From assembly GCA_012271025.1 (NCBI GenBank), contig JAAXHF010000678.1, positions 1 through 24,141 of the forward strand: a stretch of 24,141 nt of DNA, given 5' to 3'. The DNA comes from Deltaproteobacteria bacterium (GTDB lineage: Bacteria > Desulfobacterota_B > Binatia > Bin18). The notes under the pieces are model-generated. The model was not told the DNA's origin, ran no database searches, and worked only from the letters and a program-made list of their open reading frames with translations. Every line of letters starts with the position of its first letter. Positions within the stretch are counted from its first letter, which is position 1. Positions 9,048-24,141 of the stretch are shown one piece after another. Position numbers and translations under genes: made by a program.

Positions 9048-9246
9048 ACGTCGCCTCCTTGTGCGTGAGAAAGATGGCTGGACGAAGAGGGGATCGAGCC
9101 CCGTTTCCCGCTCTCAGATGCGTCGCCACCGTTCTGGCCGGAGCATAGACCACGGGACGGCAGAAAGCAAAGCCGTTTTCGTTGAGTGTGGGGCGGCAGT
9201 GTGCTAGGGCTGACGGCAGGTTTGCTCAACCGACAAGGAGACGGAG

Positions 9247-9483: not shown

Positions 9484-9490
9484 GTGGGCG

Positions 9491-10165
9491 TTACAACATC
9501 TCGGCGTGGCCCCACACGATGTTCAGACATGTCGCGCCGTTCTTGGTCGTGACGGTGTGGGTACAGCCTTGGGGCCGATAGCTCATGTTGCCGGTCGCCA
9601 CCTCGCCGGCCTCGTCCGCGTTTGAGCCCTCAATAACAAAAATCAACTCATCGCCGACGTGACGGTGGAGCGGCAGCTCGGCGCCCGGTTCAAACCGGGC
9701 CAGCACGGCGCGTCGCTCCGCCTCGGCGTCCTGCCAGATGTTTTTCAGCCGGACGCCGGGCCGCGCCTCGGTCCATTCCAACTCACTGAGGGTAAAGACC
9801 TGCGACGGCGGCGCGTCGCCCCGCTCACCCGTCATGCTGATCCCACCCGTGATCACGGCCAGCACGGTCGCCCCCTTCGGGCTCGACACAGTATGCACGC
9901 AGCCGTTGGGTCGGTAGCCGAGATTGCCGGCCGTGACCGTGCCGAATTCGTCGCCTAGCGCCCCTTCCAGGACAAAGATGAGTTCGTCGCCGTCGTGGCG
10001 GTGCATGGGCAGGGCAGCCCCGGGCTCAATCCGGGTCATGATCGCCCGACGCTGGCTCGCCTCGTCGCTCCACAGCTGCTTGGCTCGAATTCCCGGTTGC
10101 AGCTCCTGCCATTCCAGCTCGCCGACCTCAATCACGCGCGACAGTGGACCGTCGTGTTTTGCCAT
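9491..10165 (-). CDS. two-domain cupin (ChrR-like) protein
   Basis: A 224-residue protein made of two similar cupin domains in tandem (about 14-105 and 126-218). Each begins with a LEWxExxPGxRxK segment and carries the metal-binding set: His55, His57, Glu61, His91 in the first and His167, His169, Glu173, His203 in the second. The repeats match closely (for example HRHDGDELIFVLEG against HRHVGDELIFVIEG), so the protein arose by internal duplication. The domain resembles the C-terminal cupin of ChrR anti-sigma factors, but no sigma-binding zinc domain is present. It may be a small metal-dependent enzyme or sensor. I used the ATG at 10165, with GAGAAGGA upstream; the frame is open further to 10411, but that part shows no domain. 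Confidence 0.82.
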   Translation of the reverse strand: MAKHDGPLSRVIEVGELEWQELQPGIRAKQLWSDEASQRRAIMTRIEPGAALPMHRHDGDELIFVLEGALGDEFGTVTAGNLGYRPNGCVHTVSSPKGATVLAVITGGISMTGERGDAPPSQVFTLSELEWTEARPGVRLKNIWQDAEAERRAVLARFEPGAELPLHRHVGDELIFVIEGSNADEAGEVATGNMSYRPQGCTHTVTTKNGATCLNIVWGHAEML

Positions 10166-10348
10166 GGTGTCCTTCTCCCTCTCCGAACAGATATGTGTGC
10201 CGAGCTTAAGCATACGACCCCGTCGCAGAGCAAGAGGTCGGGACGGACGGCAGCGGTCTTGCCTTCTCGACCCGGCGCGTCCACAGTAGGGCTGATACGG
10301 AAGCGGAATGGTTTGTGTATGCAAATTCGGCAGCACTGGAGGTTTGGT

Positions 10349-10765
10349 ATGCGGTATGTCCTGTTCTTTGCGGTCCTGGTTGGTGCGGGATTTCAGGCGC
10401 TCCCGGCTCACGTGGAGGCTTTTGACATCACACCGGGGAAATGGCGCTTTGAGTATGAGAGCCGGGCATCATTTCAGCCCCAGCCGCAGACGCGCACCGA
10501 TACCCAGTGTGTTACCGAGCCGAACTGGGACCCAACAGCCTCAATCACCAAGAGCAGCGACTGCCGGCTCAGCAATACCGCGCAAGACGCCACCTCATTC
10601 AGCGGGACCCTGACCTGTAGTCGCGGGCAGGGTAATCCACCCATGACCGGGAGCATCAGCTACACGTCAACCGGCACCAGCCTGACCGGCCGCACCGCCT
10701 TCAAAGGCGAAGGCTACAATATGGAAATGAAGACCAGCGGCACCCGAATCGGCGAGTGCGACTGA
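10349..10765 (+). CDS. DUF3617 family secreted protein
   Basis: A 138-residue exported protein. It has a signal peptide (MRYVLFFAVLVGAGFQALPA, cleavage near residues 20-24) and then the DUF3617 pattern: FDITPGKWRFEYES, TDTQCVTEPNWDP, CRLSNTAQ, and TSLTGRTAFKGEG with paired cysteines. DUF3617 proteins are periplasmic or surface proteins of unknown role. GGAGG lies seven bases before the ATG. The gene is divergent from the cupin gene, with 183 bases between them that probably hold both promoters. No operon partner is visible. Confidence 0.78.
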   Translation: MRYVLFFAVLVGAGFQALPAHVEAFDITPGKWRFEYESRASFQPQPQTRTDTQCVTEPNWDPTASITKSSDCRLSNTAQDATSFSGTLTCSRGQGNPPMTGSISYTSTGTSLTGRTAFKGEGYNMEMKTSGTRIGECD

Positions 10766-11087
10766 GCGCCCCATGCCGCGCGGCTGACAAGCAGCCACCA
10801 GCCTCAAGCGATCATAGGCGGGCCAGACCATTCACGGCCCTCTTCCGTTCGTTCTGCTCCTCTCCCGGAGCAAGGAATCAACCCCCGGTCGGCGCGCAAG
10901 CTAAAGGCGAGGCTGGAAAATGATCATGAACAGGTGGAGCATTCCAGAAAGGACCAGAGAGGGCCAGCATGCATAACAGTGTTTATGTCCCCCTCGCAAG
11001 GACCAGCCGCCGCCCATCACAATGTTTATCACCGATGCTCAAGCGGCGCCCGCTTCCCCTCTCTTCACCAGTATTTTGAGACCGCCC
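10766..11087. other. intergenic stretch with no recognisable gene
   Basis: About 320 bases between the DUF3617 gene and the end of the HNH gene. I see no ORF with a credible ribosome site, no RNA gene and no clear terminator. It marks the edge of the compositionally different HNH segment. Confidence 0.5.
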
Positions 11088-12083
11088 CTATTCTCCCCAG
11101 GCGTTCTTACAATCCCCAAGGTGCTTTCTGAGAGCTTCTGTGTTTGGCCGGGATTCTGTATTTTCCGGCAGCCAAATGCGGCGGCCACACCACTTTTTGT
11201 ACTCGCTCTCCGCCATGCGTGGGGCAAGCAGCACTTCCATTGTGTCTGGATCAATCGCCAGCAACTGGCAATCGAACAAGGTATGCAGGTCGGCCCGGAG
11301 AAGAAGACCGTTGGATGTTCTATCCGTGTGAGGACCGCGATACGGAGCGATATGAGCTGCCTCAAGGACATCAAGAATAGAGCAGCCTGTAATCGCGCAC
11401 TTCTCCTCATAGGCTGAAAGCAGAGAATCTCGAAACTGCTTTTGCCCGCGGCGTTGGACGATCGTTCGCTTCATCCACTTTCGCGCGTCTTCCTCATTAT
11501 TCGGGTCGAAGGACTCTTCATCGGCCTCTTTTGGCAGGGGGACTAGCTCCTGAGGGACAGATCTAGCAAGGCCGATAAGCTCACGTAGCCTACAGACGAA
11601 ATCCTCAGATTCAGCGGCCTCTTCGACATAGCGGATGTTGCTTTGGCCCCTACCCCATATGCCTTTGCGAGCGCGCGGCACGGAGAGTGTACGATCAGGG
11701 ACTTCTAGCAGCTTGCAGTTCTCCTTTCTGGCCTTCGCGAAATAGATGCGCTCTCCGAATTTCTGCTGATCGCGCCACACACGAGCATTGTGATACCACC
11801 CGACGACGACGCAGCCACCCCCTAGTGGCGTCGCCGAGAAGACGATTGTCACATCGTCTACATGGGTTGCGCCGGGTGCCGCGCCCAAGCGCTCTAGATC
11901 GAGCTTGCCACCACCCGGTATCCGCACATAGCCGTAGAGCGAGTCACCGATGGGTAGGAAATTTTTGACCTCTTCACCATCCTGATTCTCTGAGACATAA
12001 CTGCCACCGTTGACGATCCGGTCAGACTGAGTCTGTCCCTTGTAGTGTTTCATCCAGCCTATGTTGAAGATTAGCAGCGCCAT
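11088..12083 (-). CDS. HNH endonuclease with unknown N-terminal domain
   Basis: A 331-residue protein. The C-terminal part (about 215-300) is an HNH nuclease domain of the HNH_2 type: FRDSLLSAYEEKCAITGCSI followed by EAAHIAPYRGPHTDRTSNG and LLRADLHTLFD, with His244, Asn258 and His267 as the HNH residues. The N-terminal 180 residues (IFNIGWMKHYKGQ, NFLPIGDSLYGYVR, GGGCVVVGWYHNARV) form a separate domain I cannot name. In this architecture it could be a DNA-recognition module, as in modification-dependent McrA-like enzymes (inference). The gene uses noticeably more A/T third-position codons than its neighbours, which suggests horizontal transfer. The start at 12083 is a choice among several; GGAG lies close to it. 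A long palindrome lies just upstream. Confidence 0.8.
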   Translation of the reverse strand: MALLIFNIGWMKHYKGQTQSDRIVNGGSYVSENQDGEEVKNFLPIGDSLYGYVRIPGGGKLDLERLGAAPGATHVDDVTIVFSATPLGGGCVVVGWYHNARVWRDQQKFGERIYFAKARKENCKLLEVPDRTLSVPRARKGIWGRGQSNIRYVEEAAESEDFVCRLRELIGLARSVPQELVPLPKEADEESFDPNNEEDARKWMKRTIVQRRGQKQFRDSLLSAYEEKCAITGCSILDVLEAAHIAPYRGPHTDRTSNGLLLRADLHTLFDCQLLAIDPDTMEVLLAPRMAESEYKKWCGRRIWLPENTESRPNTEALRKHLGDCKNAWGE

Positions 12084-12146
12084 GACTCCATTCCGTCTTT
12101 CGCAGTTTCCGTTCGAGAGTCTGTGCATCGGGCCCCGCCAACGCCG

Positions 12147-12194
12147 CTCATCACTGTGTCTGAGGAACCGGGGGGTTTCTGACACAGTGATGAG
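12147..12194. repeat. 48-base near-perfect palindrome
   Basis: Arms CTCATCACTGTGTC (12147-12160) and GACACAGTGATGAG (12181-12194) are perfect 14-base inverted repeats. Inside, seven more pairs (12163-12169 with 12174-12180, one of them G-T) close on a GGGG loop, leaving a two-base bulge. It lies between the lipoprotein gene and the HNH gene. No T-run follows on either strand, so it is not a classical terminator. It could be an operator, a REP-like element or a scar of two head-to-head transposon ends. Confidence 0.8.
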
Positions 12195-12250
12195 ACGGGC
12201 AGAGTAGGAGGGCTGAGACGAGCAAATGTGTGCGATTTACTCGTCCACAC

Positions 12251-12631
12251 TCAATTGGGAGCCGTAGTGATCTTCGTCACTTTCTCGTCAGCATCGTAGG
12301 AGATGGCCAGGGTAAAGCTCTCGCCCGTGAACCCTTCCACCGGCGTTCCAACAATTTCCCACGCCCCCAAGGTCAGGACATCCAGCACGGCATGGCCCAC
12401 GGCACGGCCCGTCGAGGGTGCATTGCCGCGTTGCAAATGGAACTCGTCCGTCCGCCCCTCGGCGGTGGCTAAGGTTTTGGCGGGCTGGCCGAGATGCAGC
12501 AAGACTTCATCCCGGGATTGCCCGATACGTAAGGCGCCAGTATTGGGGTCGGGGCGACCGGACATGGCCATCCCGACTGAACACGCGTGCAGAAATACCA
12601 CGCACACGAGGAGCACTCCTTTCCCGTACAT
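12251..12631 (-). CDS. small lipoprotein, SmpA/BamE-like
   Basis: A 126-residue predicted lipoprotein. The signal peptide MYGKGVLLVCVVFLHAC has a lipobox-like LHAC with Cys17 as the lipidation site. The mature part begins with a polar stretch, then RIGQSRDEVLLHLGQPAKT. This resembles the GxTxxEVxxxLGxP turn of SmpA/OmlA (BamE-like) small domains. The end, GESFTLAISYDADEKVTKIT, fits the final beta strands. The role may be envelope-related, but true BamE function is not supported because the gene stands outside any bam context. A strong GGAGGAATT ribosome site precedes the ATG. Confidence 0.7.
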   Translation of the reverse strand: MYGKGVLLVCVVFLHACSVGMAMSGRPDPNTGALRIGQSRDEVLLHLGQPAKTLATAEGRTDEFHLQRGNAPSTGRAVGHAVLDVLTLGAWEIVGTPVEGFTGESFTLAISYDADEKVTKITTAPN

Positions 12632-12703
12632 AATTCCTCCTTCCTCGGTCTGACTTCGACGCGAACCTAGGCAGCTACCAGAAATCTCGTAGAAAAGCTC
12701 CCC

Positions 12704-13549
12704 CTACCGCTTGGTCGCAGTCCACGTCCCGCCACAGCCTTGATTATTGAACCACGTCCCGGACGCGGAGCGGCTAAAGAACCGCCCACTCAACGACACT
12801 TCCCGTCTGCCCCCTGCCTGTAAAGGAAAGCTGGCTTCCAAGTACCCATTAAAGTCTACGATGGAGTACCCGTTGCTGGTGTCGGGCGGCACATTCGGGT
12901 CGCCGGGAGCTACAGGGAATGTGACGTATTCTGTGGGATGATGGGTACAGCCAGGGTAGGTGTACCGAATGACCATATCCCAGGTCCCATGGTATTGGGC
13001 CAAGTGTTGGGCCAGAACGTCCTCCAGAGACGGCGCGGTGGTCGTGGGAGGAATCACGATATGACTTCCCGCCTCTGCCAGCTCCAAATGTTGGGTCGAT
13101 TCGTTCCAGACAAACCGGCCATTCTCCCCCGACGCGGGAAAGTCGGGGACCAGACATTCCGCCTCCACGCCCTCCAAAAACTCTTCATCTGCCGTGCCCA
13201 CGGTGAAGGTGCTCCGGGCGAACTCAACGCCATCGTCATACGCCACGGCCGTATGCGTCCCTGCACTCAGATGGTTCCAATTCACCTGGGTGATGAAGCC
13301 GTTATGGACTGTCCCGCAGGCCAGGCGCGTGTCGGCGCGCGGCTGCTCGGTCGCCATAGGGATATGGCCGCCGCCGTCGAGGCGGACTGTGATGGTGCCC
13401 GCGTCACACTTCTAGCCCGAGATAAAGCCGACCCCGGAGACCAACGCCCCATGGGCGGGGCTTTCCAGAACCCGAGCGAAAACGCGGGAGCCACTGAGGA
13501 GCAGGCTCAGCCCACATACGACTACACACAAACCGCGCCAGACACGCAT
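12704..13549 (-). pseudogene. secreted protein gene interrupted by an amber codon (Trp46 to stop)
   Basis: Read from the ATG at 13549, which has GGAGG six bases upstream, the frame gives a signal peptide (MRVWRGLCVVVCGLSLLLSG), then LESPAHGALVSGVGFISG. A TAG follows at 13412-13414 (codon 46), and the same frame then continues for 236 codons as KCDAGTITVRLDGGG, NGFITQVNWNHL, GVEFARSTFTVG and GCGGTWTAT. I recognise the SGVGxISGWxC pattern from secreted proteins in other bacteria, in which Trp occupies this position, so one base change TGG to TAG explains the break. The part after the stop has its own ATG at 13357 but no signal peptide or ribosome site. The function is unknown. A sequencing error remains possible. 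Confidence 0.72.
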
Positions 13550-13558
13550 AGGCACCTC

Positions 13559-13604
13559 CTTGACGTTCCTGGCTATTCATCGCTACGCGCGCCGGAACGT
13601 CAAG
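13559..13604 (-). promoter_or_regulatory. 11-base inverted repeat next to the ribosome site
   Basis: CTTGACGTTCC (13559-13569) and GGAACGTCAAG (13594-13604) are perfect inverted repeats separated by 24 bases. On the minus-strand transcript the pair forms a hairpin whose 3' arm runs directly into the AAGGAGG ribosome site of the interrupted secreted-protein gene. It could be an operator or a translation-controlling hairpin. Confidence 0.55.
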
Positions 13605-13814
13605 AGGGCTCGGCCGCCGTGCTCGGCTCGGGTGTCCGGTTTGCGGGCCGAGCTGAACAATCTTCGGCCAAACTGCCCTTTCACCCACGATTCATTCAGT
13701 TGCGCCTGACCGACCTCGGCCTGTAAGTCCCTGATTTTCCTAGACTCCGTCTCGGCCGCTTCGGCCGCTACGTCCGATAACGCCTAAAGTGTCAAGCTTC
13801 CAAGATGAGAGGAC

Positions 13815-13858
13815 GGGGCCGTGCTCAGGTGGTTAGGGCGGCAGGAGAGCACGGCCCC
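13815..13858. repeat. 12-base perfect inverted repeat (hairpin)
   Basis: GGGGCCGTGCTC (13815-13826) and GAGCACGGCCCC (13847-13858) pair perfectly around a 20-base loop. It is very GC-rich and has no T-run on either side. It lies about 120 bases beyond the 3' end of the SnoaL-like gene. Confidence 0.75.
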
Positions 13859-13892
13859 TGGGGTGGGGAAGCAGGCAACCTACCGGAACCCG

Positions 13893-13919
13893 GCAGCGCC
13901 CGCAAATAGGTGGCGCTGC
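13893..13919. repeat. 8-base inverted repeat (second hairpin)
   Basis: GCAGCGCC (13893-13900) and GGCGCTGC (13912-13919) pair perfectly around an 11-base loop. Together with the hairpin 34 bases upstream it makes a two-stem structure. Confidence 0.6.
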
Positions 13920-13978
13920 TGAGGGGCCACATTTCATCAAAATTTAACATGGCCGGCCGGCTGATAACGGACGAAGTG

Positions 13979-14479
13979 TCACTGGAGCTGGGCCGCGACA
14001 AAGGCGTTCAAAGCGGGATAATCAAAGTAATCGGTATGGCGAATCACCCGCCCCTTGTGGATCTGCAACACGGTGAGGCCTTCGGCTTTGACCTCTACCG
14101 CCTCATTTGCGGGACCGCCAAAATACTGGGCGGACGCGGTGCCTGTGATTTCAACATACAGCACCACACGGTCGTTCGACGCAAAACTCTTCACGATACG
14201 GACGGTGGTATCCTCCCCGAGATTGGCCGCCATGTAGTCGAGAAAGGCCGCGAGCGAATCCAGCTGAGAAGCGAGACCACTCTCAGCCAGAGCAGTCGGG
14301 TCTTCAAACACCATATCCGGCGCCGCTACGGCCCGCACCTGCTCAAACTCTTTGCCATACAAGGCCAAGTAATACGCTTGAGCAATGTCCAGAGGGGTCA
14401 TGGGGAGGCTCCCTGCCGTTGGTGTGGTGAAAAAGACGAAACTCAAGAGCACAGCGCCAACTCGCAGGCTTTTTTTCAT
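13979..14479 (-). CDS. secreted SnoaL/NTF2-like protein
   Basis: A 166-residue protein with a signal peptide (MKKSLRVGAVLLSFVFFTTP, cleavage near 25). The mature part follows the SnoaL/NTF2-like cone fold pattern: an N-terminal helix TPLDIAQAYYLALYGKEFEQ, FEDPTALAESGL, a middle strand set VRIVKSFASNDRVVLYVEI, and a closing EVKAEGLTVLQIHKGRVI followed by HTDYFDYPAL. The family covers polyketide cyclases, limonene epoxide hydrolase-like enzymes and binding proteins, so a specific activity cannot be given. The ATG at 14479 is chosen because the signal peptide begins there; the frame is open to 14605 but codes for no recognisable domain. The ribosome site is weak (AAGG). Confidence 0.75.
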   Translation of the reverse strand: MKKSLRVGAVLLSFVFFTTPTAGSLPMTPLDIAQAYYLALYGKEFEQVRAVAAPDMVFEDPTALAESGLASQLDSLAAFLDYMAANLGEDTTVRIVKSFASNDRVVLYVEITGTASAQYFGGPANEAVEVKAEGLTVLQIHKGRVIRHTDYFDYPALNAFVAAQLQ

Positions 14480-14675
14480 GTTGGCGCCTTTCGCTTCCTC
14501 ATAATGTCCCATACCACGCAAACGGTAGCTCGAATAATGTATTTTGAGAACACAGAGAGAACCGCTGAATGTGTGTCCGGGGTAAACATCTTCAGACTGA
14601 GACACCGCCCGACCGGGCCTGCCCTTGACCGCACCGAGCGCCCGATGCTACGGGAGCGGGCGGGAGACAAGAGAT

Positions 14676-15704
14676 ATGGATATCGGTCTATACGCCACCA
14701 CCCACGGCTTTGGCTATCGGGACGAAGTCAACTTTCTGGCCCGTTCGATCAGCGTCGCGCACATGCAGCCGGTCCAGACTGCCCAGCTGGCCGAACGCCT
14801 CGGCTATCACTCGATGTGGTTTCCCGACCATGTGTGCATGCCCATGGCCTCGACCAGCGCCCATGTGGCCAACGCCTCGGGCACACGCGCCTACGAGTCG
14901 CGGCATACCATGCTTGACGCCGCCGTCGTTATGGGCGCGGTGGCGGTCAGCACCAGCCGCCTCAAGCTCGGTACCAGCGTGCTGATTGCGCCCTACCGTA
15001 ACCCGCTGAGCGATGCGCGCCAGTTTGCGACGATCGACCAGCTGTCGGGCGGCCGGCTGTTGTTCGGCGTCGGAGCCGGTTGGATGCAGGAGGAGTTTGA
15101 CGCGCTCGGCCTTGAGTATGCCAAGCGCGCGGCCCAGACCGAGGAGTGCATTGAGGTCTATAAACGCGCCTGGGCTGACGAGACGGTCGGCTTCCAGGGC
15201 CAGTTCTACCGCTTTGACGCGGTATCAATGGACCCCAAACCCGTTCAGCGCCCTGCCCCGCCGATTATTTATGGCGGGGTGACCACGGTCGGCGCCCGTC
15301 GGGCGGCGCGCCTGTGTGACGGCTTCTACCCCATTTTCCTGGACTCGCACGCCGAGCCGAGCAGTTACGCCAAGGCTCAGGAGGTTATCCGCTGTGAGCT
15401 TGAGCGCCAGCGCAAAGACCCGGCCGAGTTTGCCATGATCGGCGTCAGCTCAGCCCGGTTGACCAAGGCGGACGATCCGCAGGCCCGGGCCAATCCCCGC
15501 CGTATCTGCACCGGCACACCGGATCAGATCCTGGCCGACCTGGAGTGTTTTGCCCAGGCCGGCTATTCGCTGATAGTGTGTTTTTTCGACTGCCCGTCGG
15601 GTCAGCGCCAGGAACTCGAAGACCAGATGCAGCAGTTCAGCAAGCAGGTTCTGCCCCAGGCGGCCGGCATTGTCGCCCAAGGCGGCTGGAAAGCCCAGGT
15701 GTAA
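14676..15704 (+). CDS. LLM class (F420-dependent type) oxidoreductase
   Basis: A complete 342-residue luciferase-like protein of the F420-dependent subgroup (TIGR03619-like). Features seen are LAERLGYHSMWFPDHVCMP, RLKLGTSVLIAPYRNPL, QLSGGRLLFGVGAGWMQEEF and PVQRPAPPIIYGGVT, ending with a helical RICTGTPDQILADLECFA. Members oxidise or reduce varied substrates using F420 or FMN; nothing here fixes the substrate. GGGAG lies 10 bases ahead of the ATG. Its TAA stop is followed after two codons, in the same frame, by a fragment of another luciferase-like gene. Confidence 0.88.
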   Translation: MDIGLYATTHGFGYRDEVNFLARSISVAHMQPVQTAQLAERLGYHSMWFPDHVCMPMASTSAHVANASGTRAYESRHTMLDAAVVMGAVAVSTSRLKLGTSVLIAPYRNPLSDARQFATIDQLSGGRLLFGVGAGWMQEEFDALGLEYAKRAAQTEECIEVYKRAWADETVGFQGQFYRFDAVSMDPKPVQRPAPPIIYGGVTTVGARRAARLCDGFYPIFLDSHAEPSSYAKAQEVIRCELERQRKDPAEFAMIGVSSARLTKADDPQARANPRRICTGTPDQILADLECFAQAGYSLIVCFFDCPSGQRQELEDQMQQFSKQVLPQAAGIVAQGGWKAQV

Positions 15705-15710
15705 AAGTAT

Positions 15711-16025
15711 GTGGCCGAAACCGACGCGGAGGCCGAGTCAGTTGCCGGCCCGGCCTACCGGCAGTTTTACGATAACATCATGAAGCTGTGGAAAGACTTC
15801 GGCACGGTCCACGTCTTCTTTACGCCCGAGCTGTCGGTCGCCCGTAAGCTTGATGTGGCAATCGTTGGGTCGCCGGCGTCGGTCCAGGACCAGCCGGCCA
15901 GGCTGTGCGAAGACACCGGCTGCAACTACCCGACCCTGGCCTTTGCCTGGGGCAGCCTGAGCCGACAGCAGTCCCAGCGTTCGCTGGATTTGTTCGCCAC
16001 CAAAGTAATGCCGGCCTTTGTCTGA
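15711..16025 (+). pseudogene. C-terminal fragment of a second luciferase-like monooxygenase
   Basis: About 104 codons that match only the C-terminal third of luciferase-like proteins: VAETDAEAESVAGPAYRQFY, FTPELSVARKLDVAIVGSPA, CNYPTLAFAWGSLSRQQSQR and LDLFATKVMPAF. The N-terminal two thirds are absent. The fragment is in the same frame as the complete gene before it, separated by that gene's TAA and two codons (AAG TAT). It does not resemble that gene's own C-terminus, so it comes from a different paralogue truncated by deletion. A GTG at 15711 could start it, but no good ribosome site is present. It is probably non-functional, or a rare readthrough tail. Confidence 0.7.
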
Positions 16026-16038
16026 GCCGGGGGCACCC

Positions 16039-17013
16039 TCAAGCGGGGCGTTTCAAGACCGTCTGTTGCAGCTCGGCAATCCGTTCCATGACCTCGGTCG
16101 AAAGCGGCCCGGCCCGGGTCGCGGCAATTGCCTCGGCCAACTCGGCCCGATTTTTGGCCCCGGTCACAACCGTGCTGACGCCGGGCAGACTGAGCGCATA
16201 GCGCATGGCCGCCACGGCCATTGAGTCCCGGTCGGTCAGAAAGCCGAGTTCGCTATGGGCCAGGGCAAAGTCGGCGGCGACCGGGTGGTCGTCGGGCAGG
16301 GAGCGGTCGATGGCGTCGGTCAGCGAGCCGGCGGCAAACGGTCGGATGCCAAACACCCCTAGCCCATTGGCCTGGGCAGTCTGCACCATTTTGAGATGAT
16401 CCCGGTAGGCGCCGTCACCGGCCGCGCCCATCTCGCCCTCGGAGTTCAGGATATTCGTCACCAGCTGGACCGTTTCCAAACGGGCCTCGGACAGCAACTC
16501 CTCAATCACGTCGTGGCGCGCAATGCCGGTAAAGCCGATGGCGCCGACCACGCCCTCGTCCTTGAGCTGTTGCAGGGTGTCGAGCACCCCGTTCGGGCGG
16601 CGGACCTCGTCCAGGCTGAGCCGGAGCGGCACGCTGGGTTCCGCAGGCTCGACCTGGTTGTGCAGCTGGAAAATATCGATCCGCTCGCAGCCCAGGCGGC
16701 TCAGGCTGGCCTCGACAGAGCGCCGAATGGCGCCGGCCAGATCGGTCCGTTCCTGAGGCTGGAGAAAGACCTTGGTGGCGATCAGAGGCTTCTCGCCCAG
16801 CTCGGGCAAGACCCGACCGACAATCTCTTCGGCCGTGCCTTTGCCGTAGACGGGAGCCACATCAATCGTGTTGATGCCGGCGGCCACCGCAGCTCTGACG
16901 GTTTCGAGGCACTCTTCTTCGGTCGTCTCGCCCCACACCATACCGATGCCGCCACCGCCGAGGGTGACTTCCGAAACCCGCAGACCGGTCTTGCCGAGTG
17001 TACGATAGTGCAT
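16039..17013 (-). CDS. aldo/keto reductase
   Basis: A complete 324-residue NADPH-dependent aldo/keto reductase. The catalytic tetrad is present: Asp51 and Tyr56 in INTIDVAPVYGKG, Lys81 in LIATKVFL and His118 in IDIFQLHNQ. The C-terminal part carries the coenzyme-binding region LSLPGVSTVVTGAKN. It reduces aldehydes or ketones to alcohols in the cytosol; the substrate is unknown. The gene begins two bases after the crotonase stop codon, so the two form a translationally coupled pair. It converges with the luciferase-like fragment at its 3' end. Confidence 0.92.
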   Translation of the reverse strand: MHYRTLGKTGLRVSEVTLGGGGIGMVWGETTEEECLETVRAAVAAGINTIDVAPVYGKGTAEEIVGRVLPELGEKPLIATKVFLQPQERTDLAGAIRRSVEASLSRLGCERIDIFQLHNQVEPAEPSVPLRLSLDEVRRPNGVLDTLQQLKDEGVVGAIGFTGIARHDVIEELLSEARLETVQLVTNILNSEGEMGAAGDGAYRDHLKMVQTAQANGLGVFGIRPFAAGSLTDAIDRSLPDDHPVAADFALAHSELGFLTDRDSMAVAAMRYALSLPGVSTVVTGAKNRAELAEAIAATRAGPLSTEVMERIAELQQTVLKRPA

Positions 17014-17015
17014 GA

Positions 17016-17885
17016 CTAGCTCGCTTTCTGGTTGGTTTTGGCCCGCAGCGCCCTGGCCGTATCCGGCGGCAGGCCGCTCGGATCGATCAGCATGCCGTGG
17101 ACGTGCAGATTGTGGGTATGGGCCAGCTGGTGCAGGGAGAACGAAGTCTGCATGGCCGCCACCCGTCCCTGGGCATCTTCGGCCGCATTGACCGCCTCCT
17201 TGGTCAGCTTGAGGGCAAACAGCGGCTTGCGGCTAATTTTAGCCGCCATCTCCAGCGCGGCCTGTTCGAGCTGCTCACGGGGCACGACCCGGTTGACCAT
17301 GCCGATGCTTCTGGCCTCGTGAGCCGACAGCCAGTCGGAGGTAAACAGCAATTCCTTGGCTTTGCGCGGCCCCATCTCCCACGGGTGGGCAAAATACTCG
17401 ACCCCGTCCACCCCAAAGCTGACCGTCGGATCGACAAACTGGGCGTCCTCACTGGCAATGATGATGTCGCAGGGCCAGATCAGCATCAGTCCCCCGGCGA
17501 TGCACTTGCCCTGAACCACGGCGATGGTCGGTTTGGGGATATTCCGCCAGCGTTCACAAAAGCCCAGATAGATTTCCTTCTCGCGCGCCATCTGGGCTTC
17601 GGCGCCGGCACAGGTGAAGCCGCACCAGGTGCCAACCGTGTCGAACTCGGCCATCGCCTCCGAGGCATTGGGTTCGCGCAAATCGTGGCCGGACGAAAAG
17701 TGGGGGCCGTTAGCGGCCAGGAGAATCACCTTGACCTCGTCATCCTGGGCGGCCGTGTCAAAGGCGTGGTTCAGCTCGTACAGCAGACGGGTGTCCTGGG
17801 CGTTACGGGTCTCGGGCCGGTTGAGGACGATCCGAGCCACATGCGGCGCCGGACTCTCGTACAAGAGACTGCGAAACTCTTTCAT
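17016..17885 (-). CDS. enoyl-CoA hydratase/isomerase (crotonase family)
   Basis: A 289-residue crotonase-fold protein. It shows the oxyanion-hole segments VILLAANGPHFSSGHDL and KCIAGGLMLIWPCDIIIA, and the region DPTVSFGVDGVEYFAHPWE expected around the active site. Members hydrate or isomerise enoyl-CoA esters in fatty acid or aromatic-acid breakdown. The usual pair of catalytic glutamates cannot be placed with confidence, so a hydrolase or isomerase role is equally possible. I used the ATG at 17885 because GGAGGAG lies directly before it; an ATG at 17996 would add a low-complexity leader. It is co-transcribed with the aldo/keto reductase and divergent from the ABM-domain gene. Confidence 0.9.
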   Translation of the reverse strand: MKEFRSLLYESPAPHVARIVLNRPETRNAQDTRLLYELNHAFDTAAQDDEVKVILLAANGPHFSSGHDLREPNASEAMAEFDTVGTWCGFTCAGAEAQMAREKEIYLGFCERWRNIPKPTIAVVQGKCIAGGLMLIWPCDIIIASEDAQFVDPTVSFGVDGVEYFAHPWEMGPRKAKELLFTSDWLSAHEARSIGMVNRVVPREQLEQAALEMAAKISRKPLFALKLTKEAVNAAEDAQGRVAAMQTSFSLHQLAHTHNLHVHGMLIDPSGLPPDTARALRAKTNQKAS

Positions 17886-18016
17886 ATCTCCTCCAGACGG
17901 CAAAAATCGGACCGACGGCCAGTGTACACCGCGCTTGGGGCCTCGCCAACATGCGTTTGCATCGGGCTGACAGGGCTGCAATAATCGCGGCCACATCGTA
18001 CTCAGGGAGGACTCAC

Positions 18017-18322
18017 ATGCTTGTTGTTTCAGGGACTATTCCGATCAAGGCCGAAAGCCGTGACGAGGCCGTCCAACTGGCGCTTGACATGGCAAAAGCC
18101 ACCCAGGCCGAAGACGGCTGTCTGTTCTACCAGTTCTACGCCGATCTGGCCGATCCCAACCTCATACGTGTGTTTGAGGAGTGGGAATCTGAGGAAGCCC
18201 TCGCCCGACATATGCAGACCGACCACATGGCCACATTCCTCAAGGCCATTCCCCGGCTGGTGGCCGGCCCGGTTGAGGCCAAGAAGTATACGGTCAGCGC
18301 CGCAGACCCGCTCAGCGCCTGA
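18017..18322 (+). CDS. antibiotic biosynthesis monooxygenase (ABM) domain protein
   Basis: A 101-residue single-domain protein of the ABM/YgiN type, with a ferredoxin-like fold that normally dimerises. Pattern: VVSGTIPIKAESRDEAVQ, then EDGCLFYQFYADLADPNLIR, FEEWESEEALARHMQTDHM and a final beta strand VEAKKYTV. Members are cofactor-free oxygenases acting on quinols or small metabolites, or stress proteins. AGGGAGG lies six bases ahead of the ATG. It ends 169 bases before the copper monooxygenase operon in the same direction. A shared transcript is possible, but I cannot see whether the gap holds the operon's own promoter. Confidence 0.87.
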   Translation: MLVVSGTIPIKAESRDEAVQLALDMAKATQAEDGCLFYQFYADLADPNLIRVFEEWESEEALARHMQTDHMATFLKAIPRLVAGPVEAKKYTVSAADPLSA

Positions 18323-18491
18323 GGCACCGGGCGGGCGACTCCTTCTCCCCTGGTCGTCTCCTCTGCAAAACGGGCGGATTCTGCGTAGGGGCGGGTTTCA
18401 AAGACGCCTCTACAGCCCGGCGTGTCTTTCCGCTGTTCTCCGCCACCTGCCTGTGCTACACACACATGTGCGCTCAAGGAGGGTTGCTAGC

Positions 18492-19304
18492 ATGTTTGCT
18501 CGTCACAAAGAGATTCGGGAAGAGATCCCGTATGTCCGCTTTTTGGTCATCTGCGTCAGCCTGGGTCTGCTGGTCCAGCTCAGCATTCGGCTGTGGCAGG
18601 AGGCCTGGTGGTTTCCGGTCGGCATGGACGCCACAACGCCCGAGTTTGCCACCTATTGGCTGGGTCTGTTGTATCTCGAATTCGGCATTCTGGCCGTGGT
18701 CGGATTTCTGGGCTGGATGGCCTACCGCAAGCCCTGCCAGGTGTGCGAAGCCCAGCGTCGGGAACACCACCGCATTCTGGCCCAGCATGAACTGAGCCAT
18801 ATCGGCAAGCTGTGGGCGACGGTGGTGGTAGCCGCCATGTTTGGCTTTGGGGTGAGCTATTTTGCCGAGCAGGACGCCTCCTGGCACCAGATCGTGGTTC
18901 GCGACACGGCTTTTACTCCGAGCCATATCCCTCTGTTTTTCTTCACCTTTCCGATGCTCATCATCATGACCGGGCTGAGTTCGTGGTACGCCTATAAACG
19001 GCTGCACTATTTGTACGTGGGCGAGAACGGCAAGGGCCTGCCGATCTCCTACCTGCTCTTCCCGGCTGGCGGCTGGTTGCTCCTGGCGAATGTCAGTTTT
19101 AACGAACTCGGCCACTCCAGCTGGATCACCGAAGAGTTGTTCGTCCAGCCCTACCACTTCCCGTTTGCCTGGGCGACGTACTTCTTTTTTGCTGGCTTTG
19201 CCCTGCTGTTCGCGACCGTGCCGCATATCTTCAAGAACCTGAGAGCCATGGCCGAGCAGGCGGCCCAGGCAGACGTGCCAGAAGAGCGATCCGCCCGAGT
19301 CTAG
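18492..19304 (+). CDS. pmoC: copper membrane monooxygenase subunit C (PmoC/AmoC family)
   Basis: A 270-residue integral membrane protein with about six hydrophobic segments, subunit C of the methane/ammonia/hydrocarbon monooxygenase family. Copper ligands described for M. capsulatus PmoC can be matched by spacing: the CuC set Asp128, His132 and His145 (in DASWHQIVVRDTAFTPSH), and the CuD set Asn204, His208 and His222 (NELGH then FVQPYH). All six are conserved. An unusual CxxC pair (Cys82, Cys85 in KPCQVCEAQ) lies after the second membrane segment. AGGAGGG eight bases before the ATG is a very strong ribosome site; the longer open frame from 18021 is not used. First gene of the C-A-B operon. 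Particulate methane, ammonia and hydrocarbon monooxygenases all have this subunit, so the substrate is undecided. Confidence 0.95.
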   Translation: MFARHKEIREEIPYVRFLVICVSLGLLVQLSIRLWQEAWWFPVGMDATTPEFATYWLGLLYLEFGILAVVGFLGWMAYRKPCQVCEAQRREHHRILAQHELSHIGKLWATVVVAAMFGFGVSYFAEQDASWHQIVVRDTAFTPSHIPLFFFTFPMLIIMTGLSSWYAYKRLHYLYVGENGKGLPISYLLFPAGGWLLLANVSFNELGHSSWITEELFVQPYHFPFAWATYFFFAGFALLFATVPHIFKNLRAMAEQAAQADVPEERSARV

Positions 19305-19323
19305 TCCCGCATTGACCCTCAGC

Positions 19324-20067
19324 ATGAATGCGCAGGACCTCACCGCTCTGGGCCGGACGAAAGAGGCGAAGATCTTCGACCTGATGCTGATCCTCGCCCT
19401 GGTCGGCTTCTTTACCGTCATCCCCCACGTCAGCCGGATGTTGTACTTTGGCGACTGGGACTTCTGGGTCGACTGGAAAGACAAACTGTGGTGGCCGATC
19501 GTCGGACCGGTCTCGGCCCTGCTGGTCAGCTCGGTCGGGCACTATCTGGCCTGGCACTATCTGCGGCTGCCGCTGGGCGCGACCTTTGCCGCCGTCTTCG
19601 TCCTGGTCGGGGCGTGGCTCAGCCGGGTGTTCAGCTTTCACGGCCTGGAGTTCTATCCGCTCAATTTTGTCTGGCCGTCAACCACCATCCCGCTGGCCAT
19701 GCTGCTCGACCTGACCCTGTTCTGGAGCCGGAGCTATCTGGTCACCAGCTTGGTTGGCGGTTTTCTGTGGGGCTTTCTGTTCTACGCGGTCAACTGGCTC
19801 ATGCTGATGCCGTTTCTGCAACCGCTGAACCTGTTCGGCAAGACCTTCACCGTCGCCGACCTGATGGGCTACTACTTCATCCGGCCTCAAACGCCCGAGT
19901 ATCTGCGGCGGATCGACGTCGGCACCCTGCAATCCTTTCTGGGCCAGCGGATCTGGATCAGCGTGTTCATGGCCGGCGTCACCTGTACCCTGGTCTACTG
20001 GCTCGGCATCCTGCTGGGTCACGCCCTGGGCGTGCTGCCGACCAGGAAAATCCTCAAACAGACCTGA
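19324..20067 (+). CDS. pmoA: copper membrane monooxygenase subunit A (PmoA/AmoA family)
   Basis: A 247-residue membrane protein, the same length as M. capsulatus PmoA. It carries the family signature GDWDFWVDWKD (residues 43-53), then YLRLPLGAT, SFHGLEFYPLNFVWPS and a C-terminal PQTPEYLRRIDVGTLQSF. Compared without gaps to M. capsulatus PmoA, the Glu100 position holds Ala97 (VGAWLSR instead of LGEWINR). The ATG at 19324 is used; a TTG at 19312 is an alternative and neither has a strong ribosome site, so translation may depend on coupling to pmoC, 19 bases upstream. PmoB follows after 22 bases. The gene encodes the standard marker of this family, but its sequence departs from pmoA and amoA of known methanotrophs and nitrifiers. 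Confidence 0.95.
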   Translation: MNAQDLTALGRTKEAKIFDLMLILALVGFFTVIPHVSRMLYFGDWDFWVDWKDKLWWPIVGPVSALLVSSVGHYLAWHYLRLPLGATFAAVFVLVGAWLSRVFSFHGLEFYPLNFVWPSTTIPLAMLLDLTLFWSRSYLVTSLVGGFLWGFLFYAVNWLMLMPFLQPLNLFGKTFTVADLMGYYFIRPQTPEYLRRIDVGTLQSFLGQRIWISVFMAGVTCTLVYWLGILLGHALGVLPTRKILKQT

Positions 20068-20089
20068 CAGCCCGGACGAGCAGGCAAAC

Positions 20090-21382
20090 ATGGCCAGCTT
20101 TGCACGCATCTGGATCGCGGCCGTCCTGGGGCTGAGCCTGCTGATCGGCACGCCGACGCCGCTGTCGGCCCACGGCGAGCACAATCTGGAACCCTTTGTG
20201 CGCATGCGCGGCCTGGCATTTTTCAACGTCAGCTTCTCCCACGACCGGCTCAAGGTCAACGAAACCATGACCATCAGCGGGAAATTCCGCATGATGGAAT
20301 CCTGGCCCCGGATCCTGCCCGAGCCCGAACTCAGCTGGATCGGGGTTCTGGTGCCGGGTCCCAAGCTGGCGACCAGAGAGCGCTGGATCAACGGCCGCTT
20401 CATCCAGAACGCCTTTCATATCGAGATGGGCCGACTGTACGATTTTCGCCTCGTGCTCCAGGCCCGCCAGCCCGGACGCTACCACGTCCACCCCATGATC
20501 AACCTGGCCGGCACGGGTGGTCTGGTCGGCCCGGCCAAGTGGATCGAGGTCGAGCCCGGCGACAGCCCGCCGAGCTACCAGGTCACACTGTCGGCCACCG
20601 GTGAGACGATTGATCTGGAACACTTCGGCTTTGGCCGGATTCTGGGCTGGCATCTGGCTTTCGGCCTGCTGGGCCTGGCCTGGCTGGTCTACTGGGCCGC
20701 AAAACCGCTCCTGGTCCGCCACATGCTGCTGCTCGAAGGGGTGGATGAGGAACAGTTCAGCCGACGGGATAAAAGGGTCGCGGGTGTCTTCGGTGCAGTC
20801 CTGGCAACCGTGCTGCTCGGCGGCCTGTGGATCACCAACGCCAACATGCCGCCGACCATCCCGCATCAGACCCCCAGAGAGTGGAACCTGCCGGACTCCC
20901 AGCCTCTGCCCCAGGCTGTGCGGACGACGATCATGGAGATGCGCTACCAGCCGACCAGCCGGGCACTGCGCGTACAGGTCGAGGTGACCAATCTGGCCGA
21001 GTCGCCTGTTCTGCTGCGGAAATTCACCACCAGCTATCTGTCTTTTGTCAACCGGGACAGCCTGGGAGCGTATCCCGACCCCGAGGGCACGGCGCTGCTC
21101 ATGGACGTCCAGCCGAGCGGCCTGATCCAGCCGGGCCAGACAAGCGTGCTGACGCTGAGCATGCAGGACAGCGTCTGGGACCGCGACCGGTTTATCGCCT
21201 TTGACCAGCCTCAACTCAGCGCGGCCGGGACCCTGATATTTGTTGAGCCCCAGCCGCCGGCCGGTCAGGCCCTGCCCCTGATCATGCACAGCAATGACCG
21301 CGAGGCGCCCGGCGTTCCATGGGAGTTGGTCCGCAGCGCCAATGAGGTGTACGCCAACCTGCAGGTGGACTTTGCGCCGTGA
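20090..21382 (+). CDS. pmoB: copper membrane monooxygenase subunit B (PmoB/AmoB family)
   Basis: A 430-residue subunit with a signal peptide (cleavage after Ala27), a first cupredoxin domain (28-175), two membrane helices (about 183-203 and 229-249) and a second cupredoxin domain (about 265-430). The CuB ligands are complete: His28, the new N-terminus (in AHGEH), and His132 and His134 in GRYHVHPM, corresponding to His33, His137 and His139 of M. capsulatus. The bis-His site of that enzyme (His48, His72) is absent: Ala43 and Arg67 occupy those positions in an ungapped comparison. RRPGDWHVH of M. capsulatus reads RQPGRYHVH here. The gene ends seven bases before the convergent radical SAM gene. 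No pmoD or electron-transfer gene follows. Confidence 0.95.
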   Translation: MASFARIWIAAVLGLSLLIGTPTPLSAHGEHNLEPFVRMRGLAFFNVSFSHDRLKVNETMTISGKFRMMESWPRILPEPELSWIGVLVPGPKLATRERWINGRFIQNAFHIEMGRLYDFRLVLQARQPGRYHVHPMINLAGTGGLVGPAKWIEVEPGDSPPSYQVTLSATGETIDLEHFGFGRILGWHLAFGLLGLAWLVYWAAKPLLVRHMLLLEGVDEEQFSRRDKRVAGVFGAVLATVLLGGLWITNANMPPTIPHQTPREWNLPDSQPLPQAVRTTIMEMRYQPTSRALRVQVEVTNLAESPVLLRKFTTSYLSFVNRDSLGAYPDPEGTALLMDVQPSGLIQPGQTSVLTLSMQDSVWDRDRFIAFDQPQLSAAGTLIFVEPQPPAGQALPLIMHSNDREAPGVPWELVRSANEVYANLQVDFAP

Positions 21383-21388
21383 CTCCGC

Positions 21389-22486
21389 TCAGGTTATCTG
21401 TCTCGTCGAAAACAGGCTCAGCTGACACGCCTGACCGGGCCGCCGAAAGGCTGTGCTGGACAGCTGGGGAAAGGGTCGGTCCAGCCCGGCTTTGCGGCTC
21501 ATGACGGCAAACAGACCATGAATCGACTCGGCCAGCACCCCCTCCCCCCGCATCCGGGTCTTCCACCGCGCGTCGTTCAGCTTTCCCCGCCGTATTGAGC
21601 GAATCCGGTTCAAGACGGCGTTTTTCCGCTCGGGATAGTGGTCTTCCAGCCACTGGTCGAAGAGTTCGGCCACGCCATACGGCAGCCGCACGATAGTATG
21701 GCCGGCAAACTGCGCGCCGGCCTGGGCGGCAGCCGTGAGCAGAGCCGGAATCTCGTGCTCGGTCAGTCCGGGGATGATGGGGGCGATCATCACCCCAACC
21801 GGAATGCCGGCCTCGGCCAGGGCGGTAATGGCGGCCAGGCGACGCGCCGGAGTCGAGGCGCGCGGTTCGAGACGCCGGGCCAATTCGGCGTTCAGCGTAG
21901 TCAGCGATAGACACACCAGGGCGGCCCGACCTTCGGCCAGTTGGGCCAGCAGGTCACGGTCGCGGCTCACCAAGGCGCTCTTGGTCACAATGCTGACCGG
22001 GTTGCGATACGCGGCCAGCACCCTGAGACAGCCTCGGGTCAACTCAAGCCGGCGCTCAACCGGCTGGTAGGCGTCGGTGATGCCGCTGAAAAAGATCGGC
22101 TGAGGCTGCCAGGACGGCGCGGCCAGAGCCTTATCCAGCAGCTGGGGCGCGTCGTGTTTGACCAGCAGATTCGTTTCGAAGTCCAGGCCGGCAGACAGTC
22201 CGAGCCACTCATGGGTCGGCCGGGCGTAACAGTAGATACAGCCGTGCTCGCAGCCGCGGTAGGGGTTGAGGCTGACCCGAAAGCCAACATCCGGGCTGGT
22301 GTTATAGCTCAAGATAGTCCGCGACGGGTCACGCAGCAGACGAGTTTTCGGGCCGGGCTGGTCTGGGGCTGAATCCGGCGTATCAGGATCGGCAGGATCA
22401 GGTTGATAGCTTATGGTCTCAAAGCGACTGGTCGGATTGCGAGGCGTACCTCGCCCCTTGAGCCGGCTGGTGGGATGTCTGTCCAT
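21389..22486 (-). CDS. PA0069 family radical SAM protein
   Basis: A 365-residue radical SAM protein. The [4Fe-4S] cluster motif CxxxCxxC is Cys79, Cys83 and Cys86 in YRGCEHGCIYCYARPTHEW, and TSPDVGFRVSLNPYRG before it is typical of the PA0069/Rv2578c branch. Further family marks are IFFSGITDAYQPVERRL, VSIVTKSALVSRD and VMIAPIIPGLTE. The N-terminal 50 residues are proline-rich and probably disordered. Homologues are related to spore photoproduct lyase-like enzymes, but their function is unknown. The protein is 3'-to-3' with pmoB, so it is not part of the monooxygenase operon. The start at 22486 has only a weak ribosome site. Confidence 0.92.
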   Translation of the reverse strand: MDRHPTSRLKGRGTPRNPTSRFETISYQPDPADPDTPDSAPDQPGPKTRLLRDPSRTILSYNTSPDVGFRVSLNPYRGCEHGCIYCYARPTHEWLGLSAGLDFETNLLVKHDAPQLLDKALAAPSWQPQPIFFSGITDAYQPVERRLELTRGCLRVLAAYRNPVSIVTKSALVSRDRDLLAQLAEGRAALVCLSLTTLNAELARRLEPRASTPARRLAAITALAEAGIPVGVMIAPIIPGLTEHEIPALLTAAAQAGAQFAGHTIVRLPYGVAELFDQWLEDHYPERKNAVLNRIRSIRRGKLNDARWKTRMRGEGVLAESIHGLFAVMSRKAGLDRPFPQLSSTAFRRPGQACQLSLFSTRQIT

Positions 22487-22569
22487 ATGCCGGACAGCTT
22501 AACACTTTCGCCTTATTTTCGCTATAGCTTGCTGTCGTACACACCGAGCTTTTTCCCTTGTTTGCGTCC

Positions 22570-22597
22570 CACCACCATGCCGGATCAGAGGGTGGTG
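22570..22597 (-). terminator. possible hairpin terminator of the TauE/SafE gene
   Basis: CACCACC (22570-22576) and GGTGGTG (22591-22597) form a seven-base-pair stem around a 14-base loop that includes the stop codon. No T-run follows, so a terminator role is weakly supported. Confidence 0.25.
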
Positions 22598-23352
22598 TAG
22601 ATCAGGCGGGCGGCGGCCAGCGCCGCCCCGATGTACAAGACGGCCATAAACGGTCGCTCTGGAATGCTGGCGTGCAGCCTGGCGCCGAGAACGGTCCCGA
22701 TTGGCACACACGGCAAAAAAATCAGCGACTCGACCAGACTGGCAACGTTGATCAAGCCGAGTCCGATATAGGTGGCCAGCTTGGCCAGATTGACCCAAAA
22801 AAAAACGACCAGATTGGTCGCCACGATCTGGTATTTGTCCAGCCGCTGTTCGAGCAGATACAAACTCACCAGCGGACCGGCCGCATGAGCCAGGGTCGAG
22901 ACAAAGGACGCCAGCAGCCCGACCGAGCCGCCGGCACCCGGATGGTCGGGAAAACGCGTCAGCCTGCCACCAAGCAGCCGGTAGACCTGAAGACCGATAA
23001 AACCCAGGCAGATGCCGCCCACACTCAGGGTGAGCAGCGGGATGAAGTTGGGGCTGTAGCGCAAATAGCTCAGCAGGACCGCCCCCAGACAGAAGCCGCA
23101 GGCCGAGCCCGCTCCCAGCCAGCGGACGTGGGGGCGCGACTGGCGGCCCCAGTGGTGGCCAATGCTGAGAATGTCACCGACGATGAGCAGCGGCAGCAGT
23201 ACGCCGAGGACCGTGTCAATGGGCAGCACCAGGGCCAACAGGGGAACGGCCACAAGGCCAACCCCGCCGCCAAAGCCGGCTTTGCCGATCCCGATGATGA
23301 GCGTTGCGATAATCCCGACGGCGTAGTACAGCCAGGGGCTTGGCTCAGGCAA
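22585..23352 (-). CDS. TauE/SafE family sulfite/organic anion exporter
   Basis: An integral membrane protein of about 255 residues with roughly eight hydrophobic segments. The two family half-motifs are visible: IGIGKAGFGGGVGLVAVP near the N-terminus and LLASFVSTLAHAAGPLVSLY in the middle. TauE/SafE proteins export sulfite, sulfoacetate or other small anions. The start is uncertain. I chose a TTG at 23352 because AGAGAGGA lies about nine bases upstream; a TTG at 23427 would overlap the preceding gene by 29 bases. The gene follows the SpmB-like membrane protein on the same strand, so the two may be co-transcribed, but no shared function is obvious. Confidence 0.85.
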   Translation of the reverse strand: MPEPSPWLYYAVGIIATLIIGIGKAGFGGGVGLVAVPLLALVLPIDTVLGVLLPLLIVGDILSIGHHWGRQSRPHVRWLGAGSACGFCLGAVLLSYLRYSPNFIPLLTLSVGGICLGFIGLQVYRLLGGRLTRFPDHPGAGGSVGLLASFVSTLAHAAGPLVSLYLLEQRLDKYQIVATNLVVFFWVNLAKLATYIGLGLINVASLVESLIFLPCVPIGTVLGARLHASIPERPFMAVLYIGAALAAARLIYTTL

Positions 23353-23398
23353 GGCGCGCGATCCTCTCTTCCCGGCCGGTGGCGAGCGGCACAGCGTC

Positions 23399-24141
23399 TC
23401 AGCCCACCAGCCAACGCACCGCCACAAGCGCCCCGAGAATGCCGGCCAGGTCGGCCGTCAATCCTGCGGCCAGGGCGTGACGCACCCGTGTGACGCCAAC
23501 CGCGCCAAAGTAGACGGCCAAAACATAGAACGTTGTCTCGGTACTGCCCTGAAGCGTAGACACCAGATAGCCGACCAGACTGTCCGGCCCCTCGGCCTGC
23601 ATGATCTCGGCCATAATGCCGTAGGCGCCAGAGCCCGACAGCGGACGCAGCAGGGCCATGGGCAGGGCTTCGGCCGGAAAGCCGATCAGGCTGAGCCCTG
23701 GGCCGACCACGGCAATGATGGCGTCGAGCAGGCCCGAGGCCCGGAACATGCCGGCCGCAACGATAATGGCGACCAGAAACGGAATGATTCTGAGCGCGAC
23801 CTGAAAGCCCTCTTTCGCCCCGGTAATCATGGCGTCATACACGGCCACCCGTTTGGCCATGCCATACACCAGCATCAGCACAATCAAGACCGGCAGCAGC
23901 CAGGTGGAGACGGCGTCCCGCAGCACCTCGCCGACCGACAGGCCGCTAGCCAGGCTGGTCCGCAGATGGACGATGAAACCAAGGCTCAGAGCGGCCAGCG
24001 TCACCAGCGCGGCAAGACAGCCCGGCCGCGAGGTCGGTCGGTCGGCGCCGAGAGCGTCCTGGTCAGGGGACGGCATGTCCTGGTTCGGGCGGGAGACGGG
24101 GGTCTCGGACAGACCCGCCGCCGGTCCGACCGGTACGGCCC
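23399..24141 (-). CDS. SpmB-type nucleoside-recognition membrane protein, possibly an SpmA-SpmB fusion (partial)
   Basis: The last about 170 residues match SpmB/YjiH-type nucleoside recognition (Gate) domain proteins: LLPVLIVLMLVYGMAKRVAV, ITGAKEGFQVALRIIPFLVA, MFRASGLLDAIIAVVG, SGSGAYGIMAEIMQAEGPDS and LQGSTETTFYVLAVYFGAVG. Upstream of this lies a polar, proline-rich stretch and an extra hydrophobic segment (CLAALVTLAALSLGFIVHL). The frame stays open to the right edge of the window, so this may be the C-terminal half of a fused SpmA-SpmB protein as found in several proteobacteria. An ATG at 24076 is an alternative start but has no ribosome site. Such proteins are membrane proteins of unknown transport role; sporulation is not implied. 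Confidence 0.8.
   Translation of the reverse strand, partial: AVPVGPAAGLSETPVSRPNQDMPSPDQDALGADRPTSRPGCLAALVTLAALSLGFIVHLRTSLASGLSVGEVLRDAVSTWLLPVLIVLMLVYGMAKRVAVYDAMITGAKEGFQVALRIIPFLVAIIVAAGMFRASGLLDAIIAVVGPGLSLIGFPAEALPMALLRPLSGSGAYGIMAEIMQAEGPDSLVGYLVSTLQGSTETTFYVLAVYFGAVGVTRVRHALAAGLTADLAGILGALVAVRWLVG

Follow-up and report, generated by a model that had tools for sequence, protein, structure and literature searches.

Copper membrane monooxygenases (CuMMOs) govern the oxidation of methane, ammonia and light alkanes, and both the organism group and the enzyme type considered here, the CuMMOs of sponge Binatota, are already known from publications of 2021 to 2023. As far as the available texts go, Murphy 2021 (PMC8262859) reported CuMMOs in both of two Bin18 genomes and in 9 of 48 Binatales genomes, with two copies in two genomes, and placed Binatota PmoA in the Actinobacteria/SAR324 clade or in the TUSC (tropical upland soil cluster) clade, leaving the substrate open. 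Among sponge metagenome-assembled genomes (MAGs), bacterial CuMMOs were found by Robbins 2021 only in UBP10 and assigned to the hmo clade, which was taken as hydrocarbon-specific. Ramirez 2023 (PMC9999580) reported that pmoA of bin18 is transcribed and took this as a methane sink, and an archaeal paper (Nat Commun 2025) cites Binatota as carriers of hydrocarbon monooxygenase (Hmo). Here we describe a CuMMO operon in contig JAAXHF010000678.1 (24,141 nt; this whole stretch is called the window below), in which three intact open reading frames (ORFs) occupy positions 18492-21382 of the plus strand in the order pmoC-pmoA-pmoB. We consider it rather probable that this operon, named copy 1, encodes a working CuMMO of a Binatota bacterium near the sponge symbionts, which would oxidise small hydrocarbons beside a second CuMMO, copy 2.

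Since the Pfam scores are far over the cut-offs (Table 1), a match of the three subunits by chance is excluded. The frame of pmoA is open already from TTG 19312, and the start at ATG 19324 matches the 247-aa length of database entry P0004. In the alignments the ligand set DHHNHH of PmoC is kept in all 75 rows, the window among them, and the set HHH of PmoB in 75 of 76 rows, the exception (L142) being a split ORF whose row has no N-terminus. Furthermore, the predicted folds of C and B resemble the solved subunits of particulate methane monooxygenase (pMMO) and ammonia monooxygenase (AMO). The hallmarks of the CuMMO superfamily are thus found together, namely subunits A, B and C each over its Pfam cut-off, CuB (HHH) in B, CuC (DHH) and CuD (NHH) in C, and the fold. 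A complete pmoCAB-type operon with intact CuB, CuC and CuD ligand sets had been proposed in the first-pass annotation; its coordinates, C-A-B order and intactness are borne out by the ORFs and Pfam, and its named residues by the alignments. Upstream of pmoC, no element conserved between genera was detected in the window, L132, L044, L043 and L042 (the comparison missed L041 and four further loci), and no sigma-54-like site was detected in these five sequences.

Table 1. Coordinates of the copy 1 operon in the window and of its predicted functional residues.
Feature	Position	Strand	Basis
Putative Shine-Dalgarno sequence AAGGAGGG ahead of pmoC	18476..18483	+	motif inference from printed sequence
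pmoC-type subunit C, 270 aa	18492..19304	+	Pfam AmoC, 147 bits (cut-off 26.7)
CuC ligands D128, H132, H145 of subunit C	18873..18926	+	alignment
CuD ligands N204, H208, H222 of subunit C	19101..19157	+	alignment
pmoA-type subunit A, 247 aa	19324..20067	+	Pfam AMO, 198.7 bits (cut-off 27.5)
pmoB-type subunit B, 430 aa with signal sequence	20090..21382	+	Pfam Monooxygenase_B, 311 bits (cut-off 22.7)
CuB ligand H28 of subunit B	20171..20173	+	aligns with residue 1 of the mature PmoB chain in solved pMMO
CuB ligands H132 and H134 of subunit B	20483..20491	+	alignment

Judged from its sequence, the host is closely related to Candidatus Binatota MAGs that include known sponge symbionts, a phylum that had been listed among the candidate lineages at the first pass. 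The Binatota MAG CO36406bin_19 is 97-100% identical across the three subunits. Bin18, the symbiont of the sponge Aplysina aerophoba, has an ortholog with C/A/B identities of 77/77/63% (L045, equated with the published bin18 by name and host). The nearest genome compared, G001, aligns with window positions 9000-24141 in segments, of which the main ones are 92-97% identical. Among the best 80 of 106 matching loci from 84,980 species genomes, eight belong to Binatota with 77-100% PmoA identity and the other 72 show 34-41%; for subunit C the values are 73-99% within Binatota and about 28-39% outside. Three of the eight Binatota records probably derive from Ircinia sponges, since their isolate names are patterned like Ircinia sponge MAGs (naming pattern as in the available text of PMC9531527). 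The metagenome proteins P0006-P0010 fall into the same clade as copy 1 at 55-82% PmoA identity. Two records with pmoCAB (L058 and L061) are titled Klebsiella pneumoniae; L058 groups with gammaproteobacterial MAGs, and therefore these titles look like mislabelled MAGs.

PmoA-type proteins were present in 27 of 145 relatives searched. In the family of G001 (G001-G016) 14 of 16 genomes have such a protein and nine have two, and these nine, from two genera (two and seven genomes), are exactly those in which copy 1 occurs (loci L014-L020, L025 and L027). Thus, every genome examined that carries copy 1 (9/9) also carries the distant copy 2, and by extension from these relatives the window's own genome would also contain copy 2 and the downstream pathway described below. 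Of 395 genomes drawn from the tool-grouped phylum, five had PmoA and only G001 had copy 1. The two copies belong to the same superfamily, have the same ligands and reside in the same cells, but copy 2 (for example L125 and L130) is only 29-32/40-41/31-34% identical to copy 1 in C/A/B and falls into the broad hydrocarbon-monooxygenase clade. Copy 1 is a bare CAB operon without accessory genes. In copy 2, an additional ORF separates pmoA from pmoB, a multicopper oxidase gene lies close by (as observed for L125 and L130), and a pyrroloquinoline quinone (PQQ) dehydrogenase is encoded within about 7 kb in six of nine genomes; none of these is found beside copy 1. The remaining three genomes have copy 2 on a short contig (7-22 kb), with no PQQ dehydrogenase among the matches listed. 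For copy 1 in the single-contig chromosomes G008 and G016, the nearest PQQ dehydrogenase among the matches listed is >400 kb away.

The ratio of nonsynonymous to synonymous substitution rates (dN/dS) was 0.09-0.22 for copy 1 and 0-0.144 for copy 2 (15 comparisons each), and therefore both are under purifying selection. Between the two genera dS is near saturation for both copies (1.14-1.72 for copy 1, 1.39-1.93 for copy 2), which suggests that both are probably older than the split of the carrier genera. A recent horizontal gain of copy 1 in one genus is not favoured by these values.

Some further observations concern copy 2 and other loci with PmoA. Three ORFs around copy 2 in L125 (5261-5914, 7120-7485 and 9247-9837) begin with signal-like sequences and gave no match in Pfam; two of them look alike and may encode PmoD/CopC-like copper proteins. 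The more distant Binatia-class loci L135, L136 and L142 (genomes G063, G078 and G123) combine an Hmo-like copy with a second PmoA, which scores 256-299 bits, lies on the classical pMMO side and is perhaps the TUSC type of Murphy 2021. Finally, a partial PmoA match in another family of the tool-grouped phylum (L137, G504:C25) is either contamination or a sign of a rare carrier.

The gene content of the relatives is informative about the possible function. A PQQ dehydrogenase of the methanol/ethanol family is present in 16 of 16 genomes of the G001 family. One of those in G001, which we take to be XoxF-type from the gene layout and the DYD motif, precedes a gene for a fusion of a MoxJ-type protein with a cytochrome c domain. 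Class III formaldehyde dehydrogenase is over the cut-off in eight of the nine copy 1 carriers and formate-tetrahydrofolate ligase is found in all nine. Fae of the tetrahydromethanopterin route was detected in none of the 16 family genomes, and a hydroxylamine oxidoreductase (HAO)-type protein (PF13447) in none of the nine carriers; a single family genome, G004, has the latter and is without copy 1. The search for downstream genes suggested in the first-pass annotation, carried out in the relatives, thus had a mixed outcome: the alcohol and formaldehyde dehydrogenases are there, Fae and, in the carriers, HAO are not. This pattern favours a hydrocarbon substrate over ammonia, and permits, but does not demonstrate, growth on methane. 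We agree with the first-pass annotation that the substrate is undefined; as far as sequence comparison can tell, it is most probably methane or C2-C4 alkanes rather than ammonia.

From these observations we infer catalysis, substrate and coupling as follows. By homology to pMMO and AMO, the complex would be a trimer of CAB heterotrimers, in which CuB of subunit B and CuC/CuD of subunit C would activate O2. The acceptor of one oxygen atom would be a small hydrophobic molecule, with methane or a C2-C4 alkane as the most likely candidates, and the resulting alcohol would be oxidised by a periplasmic PQQ dehydrogenase of the methanol/ethanol type. If the substrate is methane, formaldehyde could be processed by the glutathione-type (class III) formaldehyde dehydrogenase, and formate-tetrahydrofolate ligase could be the point of entry for C1 units. 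Copy 1 would act alongside the distantly related second CuMMO in the same cell.

For the phylogenetic analysis near-duplicates were dropped, so that the single-gene trees contain 75 C, 77 A and 76 B rows out of 123, 136 and 130 rows from matching loci; the PmoA tree has in addition 13 database and three AMO rows, the concatenation comprises 52 operons and a broad PmoA tree 176 rows. No rows named as TUSC, SAR324, Verrucomicrobia, NC10 or archaeal were among them. In the PmoA tree copy 1 forms a single clade of ten rows and six database proteins (support 100/99), and the clade is also recovered with PmoC (100) and PmoB (100; both quick trees), in the concatenated tree (100/100) and in the broad PmoA tree (100). 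The classical rows, meaning methanotrophs, Cycloclasticus and, in the PmoA tree, three AMO sequences that sit within the classical clade, are set apart from copy 1 with 99-100 support in each tree. In the approximately unbiased (AU) test, a union of copy 1 with Methylococcaceae (p 4e-82) or with Methylocystaceae-type rows (p 5e-10) was rejected, and unions with the actinobacterial rows (p 0.024) or with copy 2 (p 0.032) were mildly rejected. All three subunits are therefore outside the sampled clades of methanotrophs and ammonia oxidisers, as had been anticipated at the first pass, where trees of the three subunits had been proposed as a check. The exact place of copy 1 on the CuMMO stem between Hmo and pMMO/AMO differs from tree to tree. 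The PmoA tree has it on the hydrocarbon-monooxygenase side (100/99), where its union with copy 2 is weak (90/46), PmoC joins it weakly to the classical rows (32), and PmoB (93) and the concatenation (98/94) give it a position between the classical rows and actinobacterial Hmo; long branches meeting were flagged in all four of these trees.

These placements bear on two narrower readings of the substrate. Copy 1 could be a specialised methane monooxygenase that makes the symbiont a true methanotroph, with copy 2 serving for larger alkanes. The downstream dehydrogenases and the formate-tetrahydrofolate ligase of the carriers fit this, as does the concatenated tree, in which copy 1 leaves the stem on the classical pMMO/AMO side; on the other hand, copy 1 lies outside every sampled methanotroph clade, Fae is absent, and the PmoA tree points to the other side, so that we give this reading real but limited credence. 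Alternatively, copy 1 might be a C2-C4 hydrocarbon monooxygenase like actinobacterial Hmo/Bmo, which we regard as possible but tentative. Its subunit A falls on the same side of the PmoA tree as copy 2 and actinobacterial Hmo, its nearest named outside relatives in tblastn are the plasmid copies of Rhodococcus and Mycolicibacterium (41-44%), and the hmo assignment of bacterial sponge CuMMOs by Robbins 2021, as given in its available text, points the same way. However, 41-44% is no higher than the approximately 40% identity to methanotrophs, and the concatenated tree separates copy 1 from the actinobacterial rows and from copy 2, in agreement with the AU values above.

Several points weigh against the view of copy 1 as a working hydrocarbon-oxidising CuMMO. 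No alcohol dehydrogenase or copper-delivery gene adjoins it, the lack of Fae means that the commonest formaldehyde route of methanotrophs is missing, and the clade has no member of known activity or substrate. The fold models do not probe the copper sites, because each comprises one chain only and their confidence is low at H28 (21-37) and at 209-212. In addition, all three subunits are below the NCBI equivalog cut-offs, both for the pMMO models TIGR03078/03079/03080 (C/B/A scores and cut-offs 138.7/280.6, 250.4/394.9 and 198.9/318.15 bits) and for the AMO models NF041641/NF041557/NF041640 (C/A/B 156.8/319, 220.3/290 and 317.7/336 bits). The Rhodococcus plasmid Hmo and copy 2 are likewise under these cut-offs, and a Methylomonas control was over the cut-off in five of the six models, including two of the three pMMO models. 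It is tempting to speculate that copy 1 represents a functional class distinct from pMMO, AMO and Hmo, which acts on a substrate of its own (traces of methane produced within the sponge, for example, or a small molecule from the host), has no dedicated accessory genes and is maintained by selection in two sponge-associated Binatota genera beside an Hmo-type enzyme; we consider this unlikely.

That copy 1 is an ammonia monooxygenase is very improbable. Its best NCBIfam matches are the AmoA/B/C models, PmoB almost reaching the cut-off, but all three subunits stay below, and since Methylomonas pMMO passes the same models, these do not separate AMO from pMMO. Moreover, copy 1 lies outside the classical clade that holds the AMO sequences, and ammonia oxidation was rejected for want of an HAO-type protein in the carriers. 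A non-functional extra copy in decay or an assembly artefact, to which the bare operon and a subunit A dN higher than that of copy 2 might point, is hardly credible, as copy 1 is intact with all ligands in the window and in 9/9 other carriers, its dN/dS is low, and its gene order recurs in an independent assembly.

The latter is G002 of the same genus, in which ABM-pmoCAB-radical SAM-TauE-Gate follow in the same order on one contig and are 93-98% identical to the window. A chimeric contig, the possibility raised in the first-pass annotation, was therefore rejected. The operon is flanked by PA0069-family radical SAM, ABM, crotonase, aldo/keto reductase and luciferase-like genes. Only pmoCAB is common to the copy 1 loci of the two carrier genera, and the other window genes have no syntenic match in the copy 1 flanks of the second genus. 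Because the flanks are unrelated between the genera and hold general enzymes, they say little on function, and we rejected them as a functional clue; the neighbours named in the first-pass annotation are present, while its argument from them is weak and is not supported. Three luciferase-like genes or pieces exist in the window (1435-2598, 14625-15704 and 15711-16025; Pfam was applied to 14625-15704 only). The last (plus strand) corresponds to the C-terminal third of such a gene, whose intact 355-aa counterpart in G002 (L132:15167-16231) is 92% identical to it, and therefore the front part has been lost or rearranged in the window. The region 11088-12631, which encodes an HNH-endonuclease-like protein (named by sequence reading) and a small hypothetical protein, coincides with a local GC dip (0.556) and has no match in the stretches of 11 relatives compared.

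The proposal of sponge Binatota as a methane sink is a published inference from pmoA transcripts. Since the two pmoA genes in genomes of this type differ widely, transcripts of pmoA cannot be taken as a sign of methane oxidation unless the copies are distinguished. Knowing the substrate of each copy would allow the proposed methane cycle of sponges to be tested directly. We found no paper separating copy 1 from copy 2 among open-licence PMC texts (figures and supplements aside), nor is the window copy singled out in the texts, figures aside, of the Binatota CuMMO accounts of Murphy 2021 and Ramirez 2023. The division into two deeply separated copies, of which one is bare and the other accompanied by accessory genes, and its fixation in both of the sponge genera sampled, is what we did not find described.

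In comparison with known systems, the CuMMO of bin18 (order Bin18) has the same bare CAB order and ligands as the window copy. The actinobacterial plasmid Hmo of Mycolicibacterium chubuense NBB4, Rhodococcus sp. ZPP and M. dioxanotrophicus also share gene order and ligands, and the Rhodococcus enzyme, the one tested, shares the scores below the NCBI pMMO/AMO cut-offs; they differ in sequence (36-38/41-44/30-33% identity in C/A/B), and in two of the three plasmids a gene for N,N-dimethyl-4-nitrosoaniline-dependent methanol dehydrogenase is annotated nearby. The pMMO of Methylococcaceae and Methylocystaceae has the same subunits, order, ligands and fold, but is about 28-39/34-41/29-35% identical in C/A/B and forms a separate clade. 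The copy 1 lineage is thus divergent enough to be a variant within the CuMMO family.
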